From contig CALMID010000438.1 in assembly GCA_937863915.1 (NCBI GenBank), forward strand, positions 1 to 11,490: 11,490 bases of DNA. Reading direction: 5' to 3'. The notes under the pieces were generated by a model, which searched no databases, was not told the DNA's origin, and saw only the letters and a list, made by a program, of their open reading frames with translations. The translations under genes were made by a program, and so were the position numbers. Below, piece by piece: positions 2,419 to 11,490 of this stretch (the first letter of the stretch is position 1; the number at the start of each line of letters is the position of its first letter). The DNA is from an uncultured Pseudomonas sp. GTDB lineage: Bacteria > Pseudomonadota > Gammaproteobacteria > Pseudomonadales > Pseudomonadaceae.

Positions 2419-3243
2419 ATGCAAGTACTCGATGGCAAGGTTGCCGTGATCACCGGCGCAGGCTCAGGCATTGGCCGTGCACTGGCCGAACAACTGGCCA
2501 AGGAAGGCTGCGCCCTGGCGCTGGCCGACATCAATCAGGAGAACCTGGAAAGCCTGGCCGCCGAACTGCGTCTGGCCAAGGTCGATGTCAGCTGCCATGT
2601 ACTGGACGTGGCCAATCGCGCCGCCGTCTACGCCTTTGCCGATGAAGTGCTGGCCCACCACGGCAGCGCCCAGATCATCATCAACAACGCCGGCGTCGCG
2701 GTATCGCAGACGGTCGCCGACCTCTGTTATGACGACTTCGAATGGCTGATGGGCATCAATTTCTGGGGCGTGGTGCACGGCACCAAGGCCTTCCTGCCCC
2801 ACCTGCTGAAGAACAACGACGGACATATCGTCAACGTTTCCAGCATTTTCGGCATCATCGGCGTGCCCACCCAGAGCGCCTACAACGCCAGCAAGTTCGC
2901 CGTGCGCGGCTTTACCGAAGCGCTGCGCCAGGAGGTGCAGTGCACCCAGGTCAAGGTCAGCTGCGTGCACCCGGGCGGCATCAAGACCAACATCGCCAAA
3001 TCCGCACGTTTTTACCGCGACATGAGCGGCAATCAGGATGCCGCACGCTCGGCGGCCAACTTCGACAAGATCGCCCGCACCACGCCAGCCGAAGCGGCGC
3101 GAGTGATCATCGACGGCATCAAGCGCAACAATCCACGCATTCTCATCGGCGCCGACGCGCGCCTGCTCGACCGCCTGCAACGCCTGATGCCGGTGAGTTA
3201 CAGCCGCATCCTGGCCAAGCTGACGGGCAGTCGTGGCAACTGA
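2419..3243 (+). CDS. Short-chain dehydrogenase/reductase (classical SDR), 274 aa
   Basis: NAD(P)-dependent oxidoreductase with a Rossmann fold, predicted soluble. The glycine-rich cofactor loop TGAGSGIG is at residues 12-19. Asp37 at the end of the second strand favours NAD(H). NNAG is at 89-92. Catalytic residues are Ser142, Tyr155 and Lys159 (YNASK), followed by the HPGGIKT segment at 184-190. All expected motifs are intact and the length is normal for the classical class plus a basic C-terminal tail of about 30 residues. The start at 2419 has a good Shine-Dalgarno (AGAGG, 7 bases spacing). The substrate cannot be told from sequence. Neighbours (a c-di-GMP-type signalling protein and a Dps) do not point to a pathway. 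It resembles the second SDR of this window around SKFAxRGFxEALR, a stretch common to many SDRs of this type. Confidence 0.9.
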   Translation: MQVLDGKVAVITGAGSGIGRALAEQLAKEGCALALADINQENLESLAAELRLAKVDVSCHVLDVANRAAVYAFADEVLAHHGSAQIIINNAGVAVSQTVADLCYDDFEWLMGINFWGVVHGTKAFLPHLLKNNDGHIVNVSSIFGIIGVPTQSAYNASKFAVRGFTEALRQEVQCTQVKVSCVHPGGIKTNIAKSARFYRDMSGNQDAARSAANFDKIARTTPAEAARVIIDGIKRNNPRILIGADARLLDRLQRLMPVSYSRILAKLTGSRGN

Positions 3244-5805: not shown

Positions 5806-6015
5806 TCAGTAGTGCGGCGGCGGTGGTTCATCGCCCATAGGCTCGCCGACCTGGCCAGCCAGGTCTTCCTGGCGCCGCGCCAGCGCCTGTAGCTGCAGCT
5901 GCAGGCGCTCGATATCGCGCTGCTGACGGGCAATCTCATCACTCATGGTCATCAGGGCGTCATCCTGGAAGGCCACCCGGGTCTCCAGCTCCATCAAACG
6001 CAGTTCAACGCTCAT
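5806..6015 (-). CDS. slyX: SlyX family protein, 69 aa
   Basis: Short cytoplasmic protein of unknown function. Residues about 3-55 form a continuous heptad-rich coiled coil beginning SVELRLMELETRVAFQDD. It ends with a Pro-rich tail closing in PPPPHY, the hallmark of the SlyX family. Length is normal. The ATG overlaps the stop of the upstream HIT gene (ATGA, 6015-6012), so translation is very probably coupled. The pair ends at the bidirectional terminator at 5767-5793. No specific role can be inferred beyond the conserved linkage. Confidence 0.93.
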   Translation of the reverse strand: MSVELRLMELETRVAFQDDALMTMSDEIARQQRDIERLQLQLQALARRQEDLAGQVGEPMGDEPPPPHY

Positions 6016-6443
6016 GCCGACGCTCCGGCGAACTGAAAGTCATCGTCCAGTGCCATGCGCAACTTGTCCCGCAGGGCAGCCACCTGTTCGTCGCTGTAGG
6101 CTTTGGCCGGGTGCTTGCCCCAGACAGGCGCTGGCCAGGCCGGATCATCCTTGCGCCGAACGATGACATGCATGTGCAACTGGCTGACCACATTGCCCAG
6201 GGTTGCCACGTTCATCTTGTCGGCCTTGAAGGTGTCCTTGAGCACTTCGGCCAGCTCCGTGCTCTCCCGCCACAGCTGCTGCTGCTCCTGGGCATCGAGC
6301 TGGAACAGTTCGCTCACTTCGTCGCGACGCGGCACCAGAATGAACCAGGGGTAGTTGGCATCGTTCATCAACAACAGGCGACAGAGAGGGAAGTCTCCCA
6401 GCAGCACAGTGTCCTGCTGCAGGCGTTGATCCAGGGTGAACAT
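6012..6443 (-). CDS. HIT-family protein, 143 aa
   Basis: Member of the histidine-triad superfamily of nucleotide hydrolases/transferases, soluble. The triad region reads NVVSQLHMHVIVRR. Aligned to Hint-type HVHLHV, the middle His90 (the nucleophile position) and His92 are kept, but the first histidine is Gln88. The downstream WP.PVWGK segment (103-110) is typical of this proteobacterial HIT subgroup. Activity on nucleoside phosphoramidates or related substrates is plausible but not shown. I chose the ATG at 6443 because it has GGAG with 7 bases spacing; an in-frame ATG at 6458 would add five residues without a ribosome site. It overlaps slyX by four bases. The sensor kinase gene ends 79 bases upstream, so the two may share transcription in part. 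Confidence 0.87.
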   Translation of the reverse strand: MFTLDQRLQQDTVLLGDFPLCRLLLMNDANYPWFILVPRRDEVSELFQLDAQEQQQLWRESTELAEVLKDTFKADKMNVATLGNVVSQLHMHVIVRRKDDPAWPAPVWGKHPAKAYSDEQVAALRDKLRMALDDDFQFAGASA

Positions 6444-6522
6444 GGCGTTTCTCCGCAAAGGCCGTCGAATTCAGCGTAGCCGCACAGCGGGCGGCAACGT
6501 GCTGCAGAGAATACCGCACCAC

Positions 6523-7983
6523 TCACTGGCGCGGCAGACGCACCCGCACTTCAAGCCCGCCCAGTGTCGCCGTGTGCAGGCTGATCTCGCCGCGATGCAG
6601 CTCGACAATACGCTGCACGATGGACAGCCCCAGACCGGCGCCCTGCCCCGGCCCCTGCCGATAGAATCGCTGGAACAATCGCTCGCGCTGTTCCTGCGGC
6701 ACCCCGGGGCCACTGTCCTGCACGCTGAGCAGCAGACTGCCGTCCTGATCCACCAGGCCGAGCTGGATACGGCCACCTTCCGGGGTGTACTGCAAGGCAT
6801 TGCCGACCAGGTTCTGCAGGAGAATACCCAGGCTCGGCGCATCGCCACGCAACTGGAAATCGCCCGATTCATCAAGCTCCAGAGCCAGCTCCTGATCGCG
6901 CTCCAGCGCCAGCGGGATCAGCTCGGCCAGTTCCTGACGCAGAAAAGCCGCGAGATCAAAGGGCTGCATGGCCAGCTGCACGGCATTGGGTTCTAGGCGG
7001 GCCAGGGTCAGCAACTGGGTCACTACCCGCGTGGCGCGATCCACGCCACCGATCAACTGCGCCAGGGCGGCATCACGCTCGTCGGCGCTAGCGGCAGAAA
7101 CGGCGTTCTGCGCATGAATCCGCAGCACCGCCAGCGGGGTGCGCAACTCATGAGCGGCATCGGCGAGAAAGCGTTTTTCCCGCTCCAGCAACACATTGAC
7201 CTGCTGCAGCAGACGATTGAGCGAGGCGGCCATCGGCTCCAGCTCACTGGGCAGAGGTGCCAGCACCAGCGGCGCCAGATTGTCCGGATCGCGACTCTTG
7301 AGAAAATTGACCATCTGCTGCAACGGCAGCAGCCCCATACCCACCGCAACCCACACCAGCAGCGCCAGCAGTGGCAAGCCGAGCAGATCGGGCAGCAGGC
7401 TGCGCATGGCTATTTTACCTACCAGTTCGCCACGCACATCATCACGCTCGGCGACCATGATCCACTTGCCGGCCAGCTGGTCATGCAGCATGAACACCCG
7501 CCAGTGGTAATGACCGAGCGGAACGGTGTGATAGCCGAGCAGATCGGCACCGGTACTGCTCAGCGGCTCATCACTACCATGCGCGTGAGGTTGCGGTGCC
7601 TGCTGGTGGAAATCCACGATCATCCGCCGCAGCAGATCGGCTGGAGCACTGGCCGATTGCAGCAGTACCTGCCCGTGATCGTCGAGCACCTGAAAGGCCA
7701 GTTTGCCTTCATAGGGATGCCCGTTCGCCGGCAATGCTCTGGTCGTCTCGCGCTGACTGAGCAGGGCACTATTGAGCGCACGCTGCATCAACTCCCGGGT
7801 CGCCAGCGGCATGTCGCCACCGACCATGCCCTGGAGAATGCGCGCGGTCTGCGCCAGCTGGGCATCGAACAGCTCCTCGATCTCATGCTGTGCATCGAAG
7901 TAGCTTTTCAGCGAGATGGCCGTCAGCGACAGCACCAGCACACCCAGCACCAGACCGAGAATCCGCGCGCGAATCGAGCGCAT
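6523..7983 (-). CDS. QseC/PmrB-type sensor histidine kinase, 486 aa
   Basis: Inner-membrane sensor kinase. Membrane segments lie near residues 7-26 and 198-217, flanking a periplasmic sensor region of about 165 residues. A short HAMP-like or linker zone (about 219-265) follows. The phosphoacceptor motif is FLADAAHELRTPLAVL with His278. The ATPase has N box NLVGNALQYT (391-400), G1 DSGPGVP (423-429), F box LFQRFYRQ and G2 GAGLGLS (448-454). All catalytic motifs are intact. The periplasmic part contains several histidines (H126, H133, H135, H152, H158, H160), including an HAH motif, which could suggest metal or pH sensing. I see no ExxE iron motif. The start codon overlaps the regulator's stop by one base (TGATG), with GGAGAAG upstream inside the regulator gene. 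Its partner is certainly the gene at 7983-8642. The signal is unknown. Confidence 0.95.
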   Translation of the reverse strand: MRSIRARILGLVLGVLVLSLTAISLKSYFDAQHEIEELFDAQLAQTARILQGMVGGDMPLATRELMQRALNSALLSQRETTRALPANGHPYEGKLAFQVLDDHGQVLLQSASAPADLLRRMIVDFHQQAPQPHAHGSDEPLSSTGADLLGYHTVPLGHYHWRVFMLHDQLAGKWIMVAERDDVRGELVGKIAMRSLLPDLLGLPLLALLVWVAVGMGLLPLQQMVNFLKSRDPDNLAPLVLAPLPSELEPMAASLNRLLQQVNVLLEREKRFLADAAHELRTPLAVLRIHAQNAVSAASADERDAALAQLIGGVDRATRVVTQLLTLARLEPNAVQLAMQPFDLAAFLRQELAELIPLALERDQELALELDESGDFQLRGDAPSLGILLQNLVGNALQYTPEGGRIQLGLVDQDGSLLLSVQDSGPGVPQEQRERLFQRFYRQGPGQGAGLGLSIVQRIVELHRGEISLHTATLGGLEVRVRLPRQ

Positions 7984-8642
7984 CAGGCCTTCTCCGCCAT
8001 GTAGCCAACGCCGCGCACAGTACGGATCAATTCGGGGAAGAATTTCTTGCGCAGGTGATGCACATGCACTTCCAGCGCGTTGCTCTCGACTTCCTCATCC
8101 CAGCCGTACAGCACCTGCTGCAGGCGGTCACGGGTCAGCACGCGGCCCGGCTGCACCAACAGCTCGTGCAGCAGCAGAAACTCCTTGCGCGGCAGACTGA
8201 GACTCTGGCCCTGCCAGGTCACCAGCTGACTGGAGGGATCGAGGACAATGCCGCGGTACTCCAGCAGCGGCTCGGAGCGATTGAAGCTGCGCCGCAGCAA
8301 GGCGCGCAGGCGCGCCTTGAGTTCGGCGACATCGAAGGGTTTGACCAGATAGTCGTCAGCTCCCGCATCCAGCCCGGCAATACGATCATCCGTGGCATCG
8401 CGGGCCGTGAGCACCAGTACCGGCAACTGGTGCTTGCCGCTGCGCACGCGCTTGAGCACCTGCAGGCCATCCAGGCGCGGCAGCCCCAGGTCGAGAATCA
8501 CCAGATCGAAACTTTCCTGCTCGATGGCGTGCACGGCACTCAAACCATCCTGCAGCCAGTCCACCGTATAGCCCTCGGGCTTGAGGGCGGCACGAATACC
8601 CTCGCCGAGGGCCGGATCATCTTCTACCAGCAGCAAACGCAT
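7983..8642 (-). CDS. OmpR-family response regulator (QseB/PmrA type), 219 aa
   Basis: DNA-binding response regulator. The receiver domain (1-115) has acidic pocket EDD (7-9), phospho-acceptor Asp51 (ILDLGLPRLDG), Thr79 and Lys101 (KPFD). The C-terminal winged helix (about 125-217) contains LPRKEFLLLHELLVQPG. Its recognition region, WDEEVESNALEVHVHHLRKK, is characteristic of the QseB/PmrA branch, and it ends TVRGVGYM. All key residues are intact and the length is standard. The ATG at 8642 has AAGGA 6-7 bases upstream. It lies 20 bases after the exported TPR-like gene and overlaps the kinase gene by one base. It may regulate its own operon and thereby the ligase-oxidase-reductase genes ahead of it, but no binding site is visible because the operon's promoter is outside the window. 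Confidence 0.95.
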   Translation of the reverse strand: MRLLLVEDDPALGEGIRAALKPEGYTVDWLQDGLSAVHAIEQESFDLVILDLGLPRLDGLQVLKRVRSGKHQLPVLVLTARDATDDRIAGLDAGADDYLVKPFDVAELKARLRALLRRSFNRSEPLLEYRGIVLDPSSQLVTWQGQSLSLPRKEFLLLHELLVQPGRVLTRDRLQQVLYGWDEEVESNALEVHVHHLRKKFFPELIRTVRGVGYMAEKA

Positions 8643-8662: not shown

Positions 8663-9310
8663 TTACTTCAGTTCAGCCGCTACCTTGTCCAGCAGCGCCT
8701 TGATTTCCGCCTGACGGCCCTGATCGGCCACCTCGCGCCCCGGACGCGGCTTGGCGGCCTGAGCCTTGAGCAAGGCCACGCGGGCGTCAGCATAGCGCTC
8801 CTGACGATAGAGGAAATCGCCATAGAAGTAGTTGGGGTCGATGCCATCCGGATTCAGGGTCAGCGCCTTGCTCAGCATGGCCTGGGCCTTGTCGTCATCG
8901 CCAAAGCCGACCGGCCAGCCCGGCACCTGATAATACAGCGCGCCCAGACTGGTATACGCCGAACCTTCAAGGGCCTGGTCATTCTTGGCCAGCGCCTGCT
9001 CCAGGCTGGCCTTGGAGGCCTTGACCAGATCCAGCGCACCCAGGCCGCCCTTGGCTCCGGCATAGGTACTCAGAATGATGCCGCGCCAGATCAGCAGCTC
9101 CGGCGCCGGGTTGTTGCGCACCTCGGTCTCGGCCTGCGCCGCCAGCTCGGCGAAAGCCGCTTCGCGCTGTTTCTCCGGCAACTGGTAATTGACCTCAGCC
9201 CAGCGGCTCTGCAGGCGAGCCAGAGTCTCATTGACGTCAGCCGCCCAACTCATCAGCGGCGCTGCCAGCAGTCCGGCCAGCAATACCGCGGTCATTTTCA
9301 TCTTGCGCAT
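8663..9310 (-). CDS. Exported TPR-like protein of unknown function, 215 aa
   Basis: An N-terminal signal peptide is clear: basic MRKMKM, a hydrophobic core to about residue 20, then SWAAD, with cleavage likely after Ala23 or Ala24. The mature part is helical. From about 113 to 190 it looks like tetratricopeptide-type repeats (LEGSAYTSLGALYY, then AQAMLSKALTLNP, then YFYGDFLYRQERYADARVALLKAQAAKP). The GWPVGFGDDDKA segment (131-142) sits at the turn between repeats. There is no lipobox cysteine, so it should be soluble in the periplasm. TPR proteins bind partners, so an accessory or signal-relay role beside the sensor kinase is conceivable, but this is inference. The start at 9310 has a strong Shine-Dalgarno GGGAGGAA. 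It lies 26 bases after the second SDR and 20 before the response regulator, all in one run. Confidence 0.82.
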   Translation of the reverse strand: MRKMKMTAVLLAGLLAAPLMSWAADVNETLARLQSRWAEVNYQLPEKQREAAFAELAAQAETEVRNNPAPELLIWRGIILSTYAGAKGGLGALDLVKASKASLEQALAKNDQALEGSAYTSLGALYYQVPGWPVGFGDDDKAQAMLSKALTLNPDGIDPNYFYGDFLYRQERYADARVALLKAQAAKPRPGREVADQGRQAEIKALLDKVAAELK

Positions 9311-9336: not shown

Positions 9337-10122
9337 TTACTTGCGGGCAAAGCGTTGAATGACGGGCAGCTGCTTGCGCAGCGCCTGATCGACGACCCGT
9401 GGCAACAGGCCGTTAAGACGCACGAAGAGCTTCTCCGGCCAGCCCATATACAGCTCTTCGCGTTCGGACTCGATCGCCGCGCGCACGGTACGGGCCACCA
9501 GTTGCGGATCGTCCATGGCCACTTTCAGCTCGGTGTTCATGGCCACCACGCTGTCGCTGTTCATGCTGGTGCGTGTAGCCCGGGGCGCCAGATAGAGCAC
9601 CTTGACCTGGGTATCGGCCAGTTCGCGGCGCAGCGCCTCGGAAAAGCCGCGGATGGCGAACTTGCTGGCGCAATAGGCGGTAAAGCCCGGATAGCCGATG
9701 GAGCCGAAGGTAGAGCCGATATTGACCACCAGCGCCCGCCCCTGCTGCCGCAGAATCGGCAACAGACGATGGGTCAGCTGCAGGGTTGCGGTGACATTGA
9801 GCTGCACCAGCTCGGCAATGGCTTCCTCATCCTGCTGATCGAGCAGGCTGAACTGATTGACCCCGGCCGCATTGATCAGCGCATTGATGCCGGAGAAGCG
9901 CCGGGCCGCCGACTGCACGGCTTCGCGGCCGACTCGCTCGCGGATGTCCGCCACCACCCATTCGATCTGCCCCGGATAGGCCGCCGCCATCTGCTCCAGA
10001 GCGGCCGCCGTGCGCCCGACCAGCAGCAGGCGGGCGCCACCGGCAGCCAGGACTGGCACCAGGGCCCGACCGATGCCGCCACTGGCACCGGTGACCACCG
10101 CCCGACATTCATTGAGCTGCAT
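9337..10122 (-). CDS. Short-chain dehydrogenase/reductase in the ligase-oxidase operon, 261 aa
   Basis: Soluble Rossmann-fold oxidoreductase. TGASGGIG is at 11-18. Gly36-Arg37 at the end of the second strand suggests NADP(H) preference. NAAG is at 84-87. Catalytic Ser137, Tyr150 and Lys154 (YCASK) are all present. The usual PG turn after the sixth strand reads APRATRT (179-185), so the glycine is replaced by Arg181. This can alter the substrate loop but is not known to abolish activity. The C-terminal about 35 residues are basic and may be amphipathic (KLFVRLNGLLPRVVDQALRK), which could suit a lipid-like substrate; this is inference. The Shine-Dalgarno GAGGAG overlaps the stop of the preceding diiron oxidase gene, 10 bases upstream, so the two are probably translated in coupled fashion. 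Confidence 0.93.
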   Translation of the reverse strand: MQLNECRAVVTGASGGIGRALVPVLAAGGARLLLVGRTAAALEQMAAAYPGQIEWVVADIRERVGREAVQSAARRFSGINALINAAGVNQFSLLDQQDEEAIAELVQLNVTATLQLTHRLLPILRQQGRALVVNIGSTFGSIGYPGFTAYCASKFAIRGFSEALRRELADTQVKVLYLAPRATRTSMNSDSVVAMNTELKVAMDDPQLVARTVRAAIESEREELYMGWPEKLFVRLNGLLPRVVDQALRKQLPVIQRFARK

Positions 10123-10132
10123 GCTTATCTCC

Positions 10133-10786
10133 TCAGGCCGACAACGGCAGGCTGCGGAACATGTCGCCGTACAGGCGGTAAACCACCCGTGCGGTATGGA
10201 TCACGGCCTGCTTGTCTTCGTCGCTTTCCAGCTTGTTCATCAGGTTCTCGTAGAACTTGATGTGCTCGATATCCAGGCTGCCGTGGGATGTCAGGTAGCT
10301 GAAAGCCTTGTTCGGCAGCCCCAGCTTGCCCTGAATGACACCGGCCGCCTGAGTAGCCAGGGCGATGCTGGTGCCCTCAAGCACGTTGACCATGCCGAAG
10401 AAGCTCACTGGATTGCCGCGATTGATGCGGTCGTAGACATAGCTGACCATCAGCTCGGTCGCCAGATGCGGCTGTCCGTGACGGACCGCTTCGGCGTCAG
10501 CACCGCAGGCGCGGATATCGTTGAGAATCCACTCCTGATGGCCGTACTCCTCCTCGATGTATTCGGCAATCGCCTCGCGCAACCACTCCAGGCGCTCCGG
10601 CAGACGCGCGCCACAGGCCATCAGTAGCGGCACGGTGTGCTTGACGTGGTGGTAAGCCTCGGTCAGGAACGCCACATAGCTGGGCAGGCTGACCGTACCG
10701 GCCATCGCCTGCTGAATGATCGGCGCGCCCAGCAGGTATTCACGGTCGGCAGCGGTTTCTTGTTGCAGCAGATCAAAGAAGTTCAT
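10133..10786 (-). CDS. Heme-oxygenase-like diiron oxidase (HDO) candidate, TenA/PqqC fold, 217 aa
   Basis: All-helical protein of the TenA/heme-oxygenase-like superfamily. It carries the six-ligand pattern of the non-heme diiron subgroup (UndA, CADD, SznF, BesC): Glu80-x2-His83 (EYGHQEW), Glu137 in NVLEGTS, and His168-x3-Asp172-x2-His175 (HGSLDIEHIKF). UndA has the same spacing, including the EG pair. Such enzymes use O2 and Fe for fatty-acid decarboxylation, N-oxygenation or C-C cleavage. TenA thiaminases have different catalytic residues (an active-site Cys), so a thiamine role is unlikely. The substrate is unknown. I start it at the ATG at 10786, with GAGGA 6 bases upstream overlapping the ligase stop; a TTG at 10792 directly abuts the Shine-Dalgarno and is excluded. 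It is flanked 9 bases from the ligase and 10 bases from the SDR. Confidence 0.87.
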   Translation of the reverse strand: MNFFDLLQQETAADREYLLGAPIIQQAMAGTVSLPSYVAFLTEAYHHVKHTVPLLMACGARLPERLEWLREAIAEYIEEEYGHQEWILNDIRACGADAEAVRHGQPHLATELMVSYVYDRINRGNPVSFFGMVNVLEGTSIALATQAAGVIQGKLGLPNKAFSYLTSHGSLDIEHIKFYENLMNKLESDEDKQAVIHTARVVYRLYGDMFRSLPLSA

Positions 10787-10795
10787 GTTCAATCC

Positions 10796-11490
10796 TCAAA
10801 GAGTGTGAGTAGCCATCAGGGTTTCGATGGCGGTCTGGTAGTGAGCAAACAGGGCAACACGGCGCAGCCGGCCATTGCTGGTGGCCAGGCCGTTGTCGGC
10901 AGTAAAGGGTTGTTCGGCGCGGATCCAGTGATGCACCCGGGCGTAATCCGGCAGGCCGGCATTGACCGCATCGACGGCGGCCTGCACATCGGCATCGGAA
11001 GTGGCGGGAAAGCGCAGCGCCAGCACCGCCACATTGGCCGGCAACGCCTCGCCATGCAGCCAGGCCTGAGCAATCGGTAACTGCTGAACCAGCTCAGCCT
11101 CCACCCACTCGGGGTTGACGTTGCGCCCGTAGGCCGTGATGAACTGGTTCTTCTTGCGCCCATGCAGGACCAGAAACGAGTCCTCGAAATGGCCCAGGTC
11201 GCCCGTCGCCAGCCATTCCTCGCGGACACAAGGCTCTCCGAGATAGCCCAGCATCTGCGCACCGCGCACCAGCACCTCGCCATCATCGGCCAGGCGCACT
11301 TCGACGTGCGCCAGCGGCTCGCCGACTGTTCCCGGACGGCGGGCCTCGGGGCGATTAAGGCAGACCACCGAAGCGCATTCCGACAGGCCATAACCTTCGA
11401 ATACCGGCAACCCCAGCGCACCGGCGCGTTCCAGCAGCGGCTGCGCCACCCGGCCACCACCCACCGCGATAAAGCGCAGCGAGGACGGAA
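10796..11490 (-). CDS. AMP-forming acyl/aryl ligase, C-terminal part (5' end outside window)
   Basis: Member of the ANL adenylating superfamily; the visible 230 residues are the C-terminal portion. The first visible stretch, SLRFIAVGGGRVA, is followed by EGYGLSECASV (motif A5), a GTVGEPLAHVEV segment, ATGDLG (A7) and the hinge motif A8 as GRKKNQFITAYGRNVNP. The final motif A10, which normally carries the catalytic lysine (NGK.xR), reads NGLATSNGRLRR, so that lysine appears to be arginine. The family activates carboxylic acids as acyl-AMP and usually passes them to CoA or a carrier. The spacing between motifs is normal and no frameshift is seen. The stop codon (TGA at 10796-10798) overlaps the Shine-Dalgarno of the diiron oxidase gene. 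It looks like a fatty-acid-type ligase, but the acid specificity pocket lies mostly outside the window. Confidence 0.9.
   Translation of the reverse strand, partial: PSSLRFIAVGGGRVAQPLLERAGALGLPVFEGYGLSECASVVCLNRPEARRPGTVGEPLAHVEVRLADDGEVLVRGAQMLGYLGEPCVREEWLATGDLGHFEDSFLVLHGRKKNQFITAYGRNVNPEWVEAELVQQLPIAQAWLHGEALPANVAVLALRFPATSDADVQAAVDAVNAGLPDYARVHHWIRAEQPFTADNGLATSNGRLRRVALFAHYQTAIETLMATHTL

Follow-up and report, generated by a model that had tools for sequence, protein, structure and literature searches.

The window analysed here is the whole of an 11,490-base contig (CALMID010000438.1, assembly GCA_937863915.1) from an uncultured Pseudomonas sp., whose genome bin (G000) is incomplete at 77%. 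On its minus strand it carries genes for an acyl ligase, a haem-oxygenase-like oxidase (HDO) and a short-chain dehydrogenase/reductase (SDR), which a sequence-only reading had singled out as a candidate pathway. We found that this trio is the middle of a seven-gene unit, with the complete order T_hemolysin (PF12261), ligase, HDO, SDR, tetratricopeptide repeat (TPR) protein, response regulator and histidine kinase, and that the unit recurs across Proteobacteria, in most cases together with a sensor-regulator pair of its own. We see about an even chance that it is an autoregulated biosynthetic operon making an oxidised N-acyl, lipid-like small molecule. The window holds the following parts of it.

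10796 to 11488, minus strand: C-terminal part of an ANL (AMP-binding) acyl ligase, running off the contig end (Pfam AMP-binding, 8.7e-13 on the fragment)
10787 to 10798, minus strand: ligase/HDO junction, a TGA stop overlapping GGA, with the HDO ATG 9 bases on (from the sequence)
10133 to 10786, minus strand: HDO, haem-oxygenase-like oxidase, 217 residues from the ATG (PF14518, 4.1e-33)
10123 to 10135, minus strand: HDO/SDR junction, a TGA stop overlapping GGAG, with the SDR ATG 10 bases on (from the sequence)
9337 to 10122, minus strand: SDR oxidoreductase of the NCBIfam PRK09072 type, 261 residues (NF006565, 393 bits, cut-off 238)
8663 to 9310, minus strand: TPR protein, 215 residues, with an N-terminal signal-like stretch judged by eye (TPR_19, 2.4e-05, 25 bits, exactly at the cut-off)
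7983 to 8642, minus strand: OmpR-type response regulator, PmrA/QseB-like (NF007928, 243.5 bits, and NF007663, 228.2 bits, both below their cut-offs; Response_reg and Trans_reg_C)
6523 to 7983, minus strand: sensor histidine kinase, QseC-like (NF007664, 241.8 bits, cut-off of 475 not reached; HisKA and HATPase_c)

Direct reading of the sequence confirmed that the trio lies on one strand, with intergenic gaps of 9 and 10 bases and with each stop codon overlapping the next ribosome site. The ligase reading frame closes with TGA at 10798-10796, and the HDO ATG follows 9 bases further at 10786 (TGAGGATTGAACATG); the HDO frame closes at 10133, and the SDR ATG follows 10 bases further at 10122 (TGAGGAGATAAGCATG). 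At both junctions the stop codon overlaps a GGA/GGAG element. The ATG at 10786 is probably the true HDO start: it is M3 of a 219-residue open reading frame that begins mechanically at TTG 10792, and it is conserved in 101 of 108 relatives. In Pfam the three proteins match AMP-binding, Haem_oxygenas_2 (PF14518) and adh_short. The unit continues past the SDR on the same strand with the TPR protein, the response regulator and the histidine kinase, spaced by a 26-base gap, a 20-base gap and a 1-base overlap. At the other end, the contig breaks off within the ligase and retains ~230 of ~486 residues, taking the 486-residue homologue of locus L002 as the yardstick. In L002, whose HDO is a 98% relative, a T_hemolysin gene (PF12261) sits before the full-length ligase gene. 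Neither PF12261 nor a protein query found T_hemolysin in the window's own genome, a bin that is 77% complete. The suggestion that the three genes act together is upheld, whereas the idea that they are the whole pathway is not, since the unit starts before the ligase and extends beyond the SDR.

How constant is this arrangement? Starting from the HDO, we examined the best 80 of 398 relatives in GTDB genomes, a sample that speaks for close relatives. Where enough flank was available, a ligase lay within 150 bases upstream in 78/78 loci and an SDR within 150 bases downstream in 80/80, and T_hemolysin was present in 76/76; among the 70 loci with 4.5 kb downstream, 66 had the TPR protein, 68 the regulator and 68 the kinase. 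Ligase and SDR also flank the HDO in all 29 of 29 additional whole-genome loci. The co-occurrence of ligase and SDR with the HDO, which the sequence-only reading had proposed to check by neighbourhood search, thus holds throughout the closest 80 with enough flank. The seven-gene unit is far from universal within the genus: a close HDO (E ≤1e-89) was found in 25 of 58 other genomes.

We then approached the unit from T_hemolysin, with no selection for the HDO. PF12261 was found in 28 of the 274 sampled genomes of the window's class and in 66 of 299 genomes of its phylum (68 matches), 41 of those 66 coming from a single family. The sample comprised 58 loci, namely all 28 class loci and 30 of the 68 phylum matches, the latter picked for family spread rather than at random and including two lone second copies; 7 of the 58 were set aside for too little room, and the 51 with 4.2 kb were counted. 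A ligase was present in 48, an HDO in 45, an SDR in 46 and a TPR protein in 46, with all four in 43. The HDO is missing from six of these 51 loci (L154, L162, L166, L309, L165 and L321), so the linkage, constant among the 80 closest HDO relatives with enough flank, is not universal. Genomes G510 and G533 each have a second T_hemolysin gene (L309 and L332) with no ligase or HDO adjoining. In two Hydrogenophaga loci (L047 and L048) the enzymes and the TPR protein are retained, and the regulator and kinase were not found in the locus. Altogether, the genes almost certainly form one functional unit.

The nearest named relatives of the window's HDO, at 98% identity, are those of Pseudomonas sp. HAR-UPW-AIA-41 and P. 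fluvialis S00202. In a quick tree, copies from Thauera, Rhodoferax (metagenome bins), Hydrogenophaga, Quisquiliibacterium and Aromatoleum fall among those of Pseudomonadaceae, partly across open forks. HDO relatives occur in 25 of 72,556 plasmid records, 10 of the 25 in Pseudoalteromonas. Plasmids of P. carrageenovora and Variovorax carry all seven genes, with the Variovorax sensor pair on the opposite strand, and Pantoea deleyi carries the first five and no sensor pair. Methylibium has a 30% relative in a different context, and 50,697 phage records gave zero matches to the HDO.

Gene fusions also speak for joint action. Ligase and HDO are fused in six loci, two of them (L167 and L168) read as one frame by Pfam and four (L319, L324, L325 and L333) called because a single frame of 672 to 738 residues gives both the best ligase match and the best HDO match. 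Mapping the six fusions onto a quick ligase tree of 82 rows takes 5 label changes, and starred branches make at least 4 of these unavoidable. The fusion therefore arose, or was lost, repeatedly; in 64 of 500 label shuffles the changes needed were no more numerous, and some of the changes may be losses. As far as sequence goes, the fusions say that ligase and HDO would share a substrate or pass it on.

In two loci, L165 and L321, the HDO is replaced by a TauD-type oxygenase; the TauD query covered L305-L334 and L139-L173, and L165 was the sole match in the latter set. The gene set of L165 is otherwise familiar. L321, from the window's genus, runs T_hemolysin, ligase and TauD, then two class-III aminotransferases and an amidase; it has neither an SDR nor a TPR protein. 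A similar arrangement is described for or1352-or1355 of Serratia sp. ATCC 39006 (PMC4046660). Like the unit, that operon has a T_hemolysin homologue, an AMP-dependent ligase and an iron oxygenase; unlike it, the oxygenase is TauD rather than HDO, the fourth gene is a Bcr/CflA transporter, and the description includes no SDR, TPR or sensor genes. Its T_hemolysin homologue, or1354, was up 184-fold in RNA-seq of an rsmA mutant, the highest change, and all four operon genes were in the top ten (PMC4046660). That two unrelated kinds of oxygen-activating iron enzyme can fill the slot favours oxidation over a structural role as the function of this position.

The HDO itself has the residues expected of a diiron enzyme. 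The expected ligands (219-residue numbering) are E82, H85, E139, H170, D174 and H177, positions assigned by alignment to CADD and by the ligand numbers of CADD and UndA rather than from a metal-bound structure. All six are found in 136 of 137 homologues; the exception, L164, has a gap at the first two. The AlphaFold2 model is all-helical, with a mean pLDDT of 90.1. The best solved chain is 3dde (profile E 2e-18), of unknown function, whose title names the haem-oxygenase fold, and the next is CADD (E 0.006); a haem-oxygenase-like fold is thus probable. A 3H/3C ligand set is described for the HDO superfamily, and UndA, CADD and other characterised HDOs share these ligand positions, and probably also the fold, with the window's HDO (PMC13108848), whereas none of them is a close sequence relative. 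A known TenA/thiamine or PQQ-type enzyme had been named beforehand as the identity that would speak against a new pathway. Both are ruled out: PF14518 is the sole match at E ≤0.001, with no PF03070, and the ligand positions are of the 3H/3C kind. The HDO half of the fusion in L168 reaches 20.8 bits with PF03070, below the cut-off of 22. Four close HDO relatives (P0037, P0054, P0084 and P0095) bear ill-fitting public names: 'biliverdin-producing heme oxygenase', 'TenA family transcriptional regulator', 'long-chain fatty acid--CoA ligase' and 'carbamoylphosphate synthase large subunit'. UndA orthology is unsupported by sequence, and no UndA chain is among the solved structures listed at E ≤1.

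The HDO might nonetheless act like UndA and decarboxylate fatty acids to a volatile alkene, with the ligase and SDR treating by-products. The 3H/3C ligand positions are as in UndA (PMC13108848), and several fatty-acid ligases match the ligase, though all models listed fall below their cut-offs and the best is menE. However, besides the missing UndA chain, decarboxylation requires neither activation nor an acyltransferase, yet ligase and T_hemolysin are hardly ever absent, and six loci join the ligase to the HDO in one frame. We consider a hydrocarbon pathway very unlikely.

The SDR tetrad N109, S137, Y150 and K154, of the classical type, is invariant in 112 of 112 homologues. A second SDR lies outside the operon on the other strand, at 2419-3243 (plus), and reaches 215.2 bits with the PRK06181 model against a cut-off of 215. 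The full-length ligase homologue of L002 matches AMP-binding (PF00501) at 3.7e-46. The ligase motif that we take to be A3 (T141, S142, G143 and T145) is present in 110 of 110 homologues, its residues falling in the part absent from the window. The TPR protein is probably periplasmic, judging from its signal-like stretch. It also resembles the sterol transport protein BstC weakly (38.6 bits, cut-off 350), which faintly hints at lipid binding. Beyond the kinase lies a HIT-domain protein at 6012-6458 (minus), whose longest frame begins 64 bases past the kinase end.

What does the first gene encode? All 48 of 48 T_hemolysin members match PF12261, with no second Pfam family of weight, and no related solved structure was found at E ≤10. 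Profile comparison suggests that this family, named for a heat-stable haemolysin, may really be an acyl-transferring enzyme. With hhalign, T_hemolysin against LuxI gave a probability of 89.6 (E 1.9e-6) for 10 LuxI sequences and 49.9 (E 1.7e-4) for 38, and the alignment takes much the same collinear course in both sets, over ~160 columns. Column-shuffled LuxI controls reached a lowest E of 0.064 in 39 shuffles and 0.054 in 60, and the T_hemolysin profile against the other operon proteins tried stayed below 1%. The profile sets were limited to sequences matching one another: for LuxI, 10 of 11 fetched loci and then 38 of 41; for FeeM, 15 of 18 tried out of 30 fetched; for OlsB, 14 of 30, with longer fused frames dropped; and for T_hemolysin, 111 and then 159 unique of 197. 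LuxI, FeeM and OlsB profiles recover one another at 91 to 99.9%. A FeeM- or OlsB-type acyltransferase found no support, with matches of 0.1 to 0.2% and 5 to 6%. We regard the relationship to LuxI as remote and, standing above the controls, suggestive. The glutamate of the E-L-S-R stretch of LuxI synthases (PF00765) aligns with a conserved glutamate of T_hemolysin, whereas the arginine of that stretch is replaced in T_hemolysin, and the T_hemolysin unit differs further in having a linked sensor kinase. Two distant clusters have cytochrome b561-type genes next to T_hemolysin, at L164:7798-8946 (Pfam Ni_hydr_CYTB, with a dihaem cytochrome c) and L336:3829-4413 (annotated 'cytochrome b/b6 domain'); they could possibly supply electrons to the oxidase.

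The unit has been published before under another interpretation. A 'potential virulence cluster' on the plasmid of Pseudoalteromonas carrageenovora strain 9T (PMC6262041) corresponds to all seven genes of the unit, in unchanged order, on NZ_CP027525.1, the record of strain KCTC 22325. That record annotates thermostable hemolysin, AMP-binding, iron-containing redox enzyme, SDR, hypothetical, response regulator and kinase; all seven match the unit's profiles, the 'hypothetical' matching the TPR profile at 250 bits, and the repeat described below lies 72 bases before the first gene. The published cluster lists QseBC, an iron transporter, two 'long-chain acyl-CoA synthetases' and the haemolysin, conserved in 24 Pseudoalteromonas genomes; in the parts available, it differs from our account in naming no diiron oxidase, repeat, fusion or biosynthesis (PMC6262041). 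In Vibrio cholerae, similarly to the unit, the fatty-acid ligase DthC (VCA1110) adjoins the delta-thermostable haemolysin gene, and a vca1110 transposon mutant fed C13:0 formed C15:0 and not C17:0 (PMC12208996). VCA1111 is dth, and its contribution to haemolysis was doubted in the tests of another paper (PMC6474259). No biosynthetic-pathway reading of the gene set appeared in titles or abstracts among the matches listed, most subscription papers and preprints lying outside the search. The earlier statement that no named pathway was known with this trio needs qualifying: the gene set itself had already been published as the virulence cluster and, for the V. cholerae relative, as the dth region.

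Following that published reading, T_hemolysin would itself be a lytic effector, which the enzymes modify or support. The V. alginolyticus protein is stated to have been characterised and to be toxic to zebrafish (PMC6262041), and the V. cholerae member, of 22.8 kDa and with no signal peptide, is described as haemolytic in lysates and supernatant (PMC4046660, reporting Fallarino 2002). On the other hand, the operon occurs in organisms such as Azotobacter, Thauera, Hydrogenophaga and Pseudomonas fluvialis, which are chiefly known as environmental bacteria; the V. cholerae paper denies a direct contribution to virulence in its title; and T_hemolysin combines a remote similarity to LuxI with metabolic genes that are constantly alongside. 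We consider a virulence function very unlikely.

We searched one strand, from 350 bases before to 150 bases after the first possible T_hemolysin start, for the pattern NTTAAK-N5-NTTAAK, which we take to be a form of the PmrA/QseB box. This direct repeat was found in 67/76, 16/34 and 11/30 loci of three sets, the first made up of close relatives, against means of 0.1, 0.1 and 0.05 in controls shuffled in two-base blocks; summed over all its loci, the first set has 84 such sites in 3.0 million strand-bases. Of the 109 loci with a linked regulator 89 have the repeat, and of the 31 lacking one 5 do (Fisher P 2.8e-11, relatedness ignored). Its first base lies 57 to 67 bases ahead of the assigned T_hemolysin start in 12 of the 14 loci examined. 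L048 has no repeat within 350 bases and no two-component genes either. The window shows no such repeat, its contig ending before the T_hemolysin upstream region. On the simplest reading of these sequences, the linked two-component system would control its own operon.

A PmrA/QseB-like regulator and a QseC-like kinase would also suit a stress or envelope module, in which the product is a modified membrane or protective lipid that is not secreted and the two-component system reports envelope, iron or oxidative stress. Metal genes adjoin two plasmid copies (an iron transporter and a cupredoxin in L335, the VIT family in L336), and the Acinetobacter HDO DtpC guards against oxidative stress on drying (PMC13232832). 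However, the Variovorax copy is without such annotated metal genes, which were counted in these loci and no others; the acyltransferase-like gene and the tailoring enzymes resemble dedicated product synthesis; and T_hemolysin matches the membrane-lipid acyltransferase type OlsB at just the 5 to 6% given above. We therefore regard this explanation as doubtful.

We return to synthesis of an oxidised N-acyl compound, for which the gene set and order, the fusions, the oxygenase swap, the expected diiron ligands, the SDR catalytic residues and the repeat are the computed basis. The ligase would activate a fatty, or other lipophilic, acid. The HDO, with a diiron centre and O2, would oxidise the same acyl unit or a compound built on it, the LuxI-like T_hemolysin would transfer the activated acyl group to an amine, and the SDR would adjust how far a carbonyl or hydroxyl is oxidised. 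What results would be a lipid-like small molecule, N-acylated and oxidised, whose amphiphilic nature could explain the name heat-stable haemolysin. The linked two-component system would turn the operon on via the direct repeat before the first gene, and a possible role of the TPR protein is to bind the product or to feed the sensor. We favour an N-acyl product because the first gene is acyltransferase-like and nearly constant and because the TauD variant brings amine and amide enzymes; regulator binding to the repeat, acyl transfer to an amine, the order of the steps, the product and the TPR role are what we infer. The sequence-only reading had an acid activated, oxidatively modified and then reduced. 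Linkage and the six fusions bear out that the trio acts together, and what that scheme leaves out is the probable acyl-transfer step by T_hemolysin, along with the TPR protein and often the two-component system.

The same genes could go further and make up a new kind of complete, self-contained chemical communication system, in which the LuxI-related synthase and the dedicated ligase make an N-acyl signal, the HDO oxidises it and the SDR reduces it, while the TPR protein and the QseBC-like kinase sense it in the periplasm and the regulator activates the operon via the repeat. We think this unlikely.

Several observations weigh against the proposed operon. The amine acceptor is a guess. The similarity of T_hemolysin to LuxI is remote, weakens with more LuxI sequences and goes with nothing against FeeM and 5 to 6% against OlsB; PF00765 was unmatched in the 48 members and was not among the 5 families at E ≤10, with HMMER filters applying. 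The literature treats T_hemolysin as lytic, the thermostable hemolysin of V. alginolyticus being characterised and toxic to zebrafish according to PMC6262041 and the V. cholerae protein being reported to have haemolytic activity (PMC4046660). On the enzyme side, T_hemolysin occurs without a ligase in L162, L166, L309 and L332, and L154 has no HDO yet retains ligase, SDR and TPR protein. The ligase carries arginine at the A10 position in 103 of 110 homologues (lysine in 2, a gap in 3, serine in 1 and alanine in 1), and a looser pattern count of 139 gave R in 114, K in 7, Q in 3 and none found in 15. The A10 lysine is presumably catalytic; its replacement by arginine means that adenylation by the ligase is not assured. 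Regulation is also uneven. In the T_hemolysin-side sample the two-component genes are often missing, with a regulator in 29/51 and a kinase in 31/51 when counted on either strand within 9 kb, some of them possibly unrelated. The repeat is missing from 20 of the 109 regulator-linked loci and present in 5 of the 31 without a regulator, and L070 has a regulator yet no repeat within 350 bases.

Our additions are the placing of an HDO with its ligands in this gene context, the ligase-HDO fusions, the exchange of the oxygenase inside the set, the upstream repeat and the resemblance to LuxI. Function has been validated for only about a dozen HDOs (PMC13108848). With PF12261 in 28/274 class and 66/299 phylum genomes, the product may be a fairly common metabolite. 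If the unit does serve communication, it would combine LuxI-like synthesis with two-component detection. The fusions, the oxygenase swap and the repeat make a vague guess testable, and what annotations call a toxin, and virulence gene lists include, may be a family of acyltransferases.

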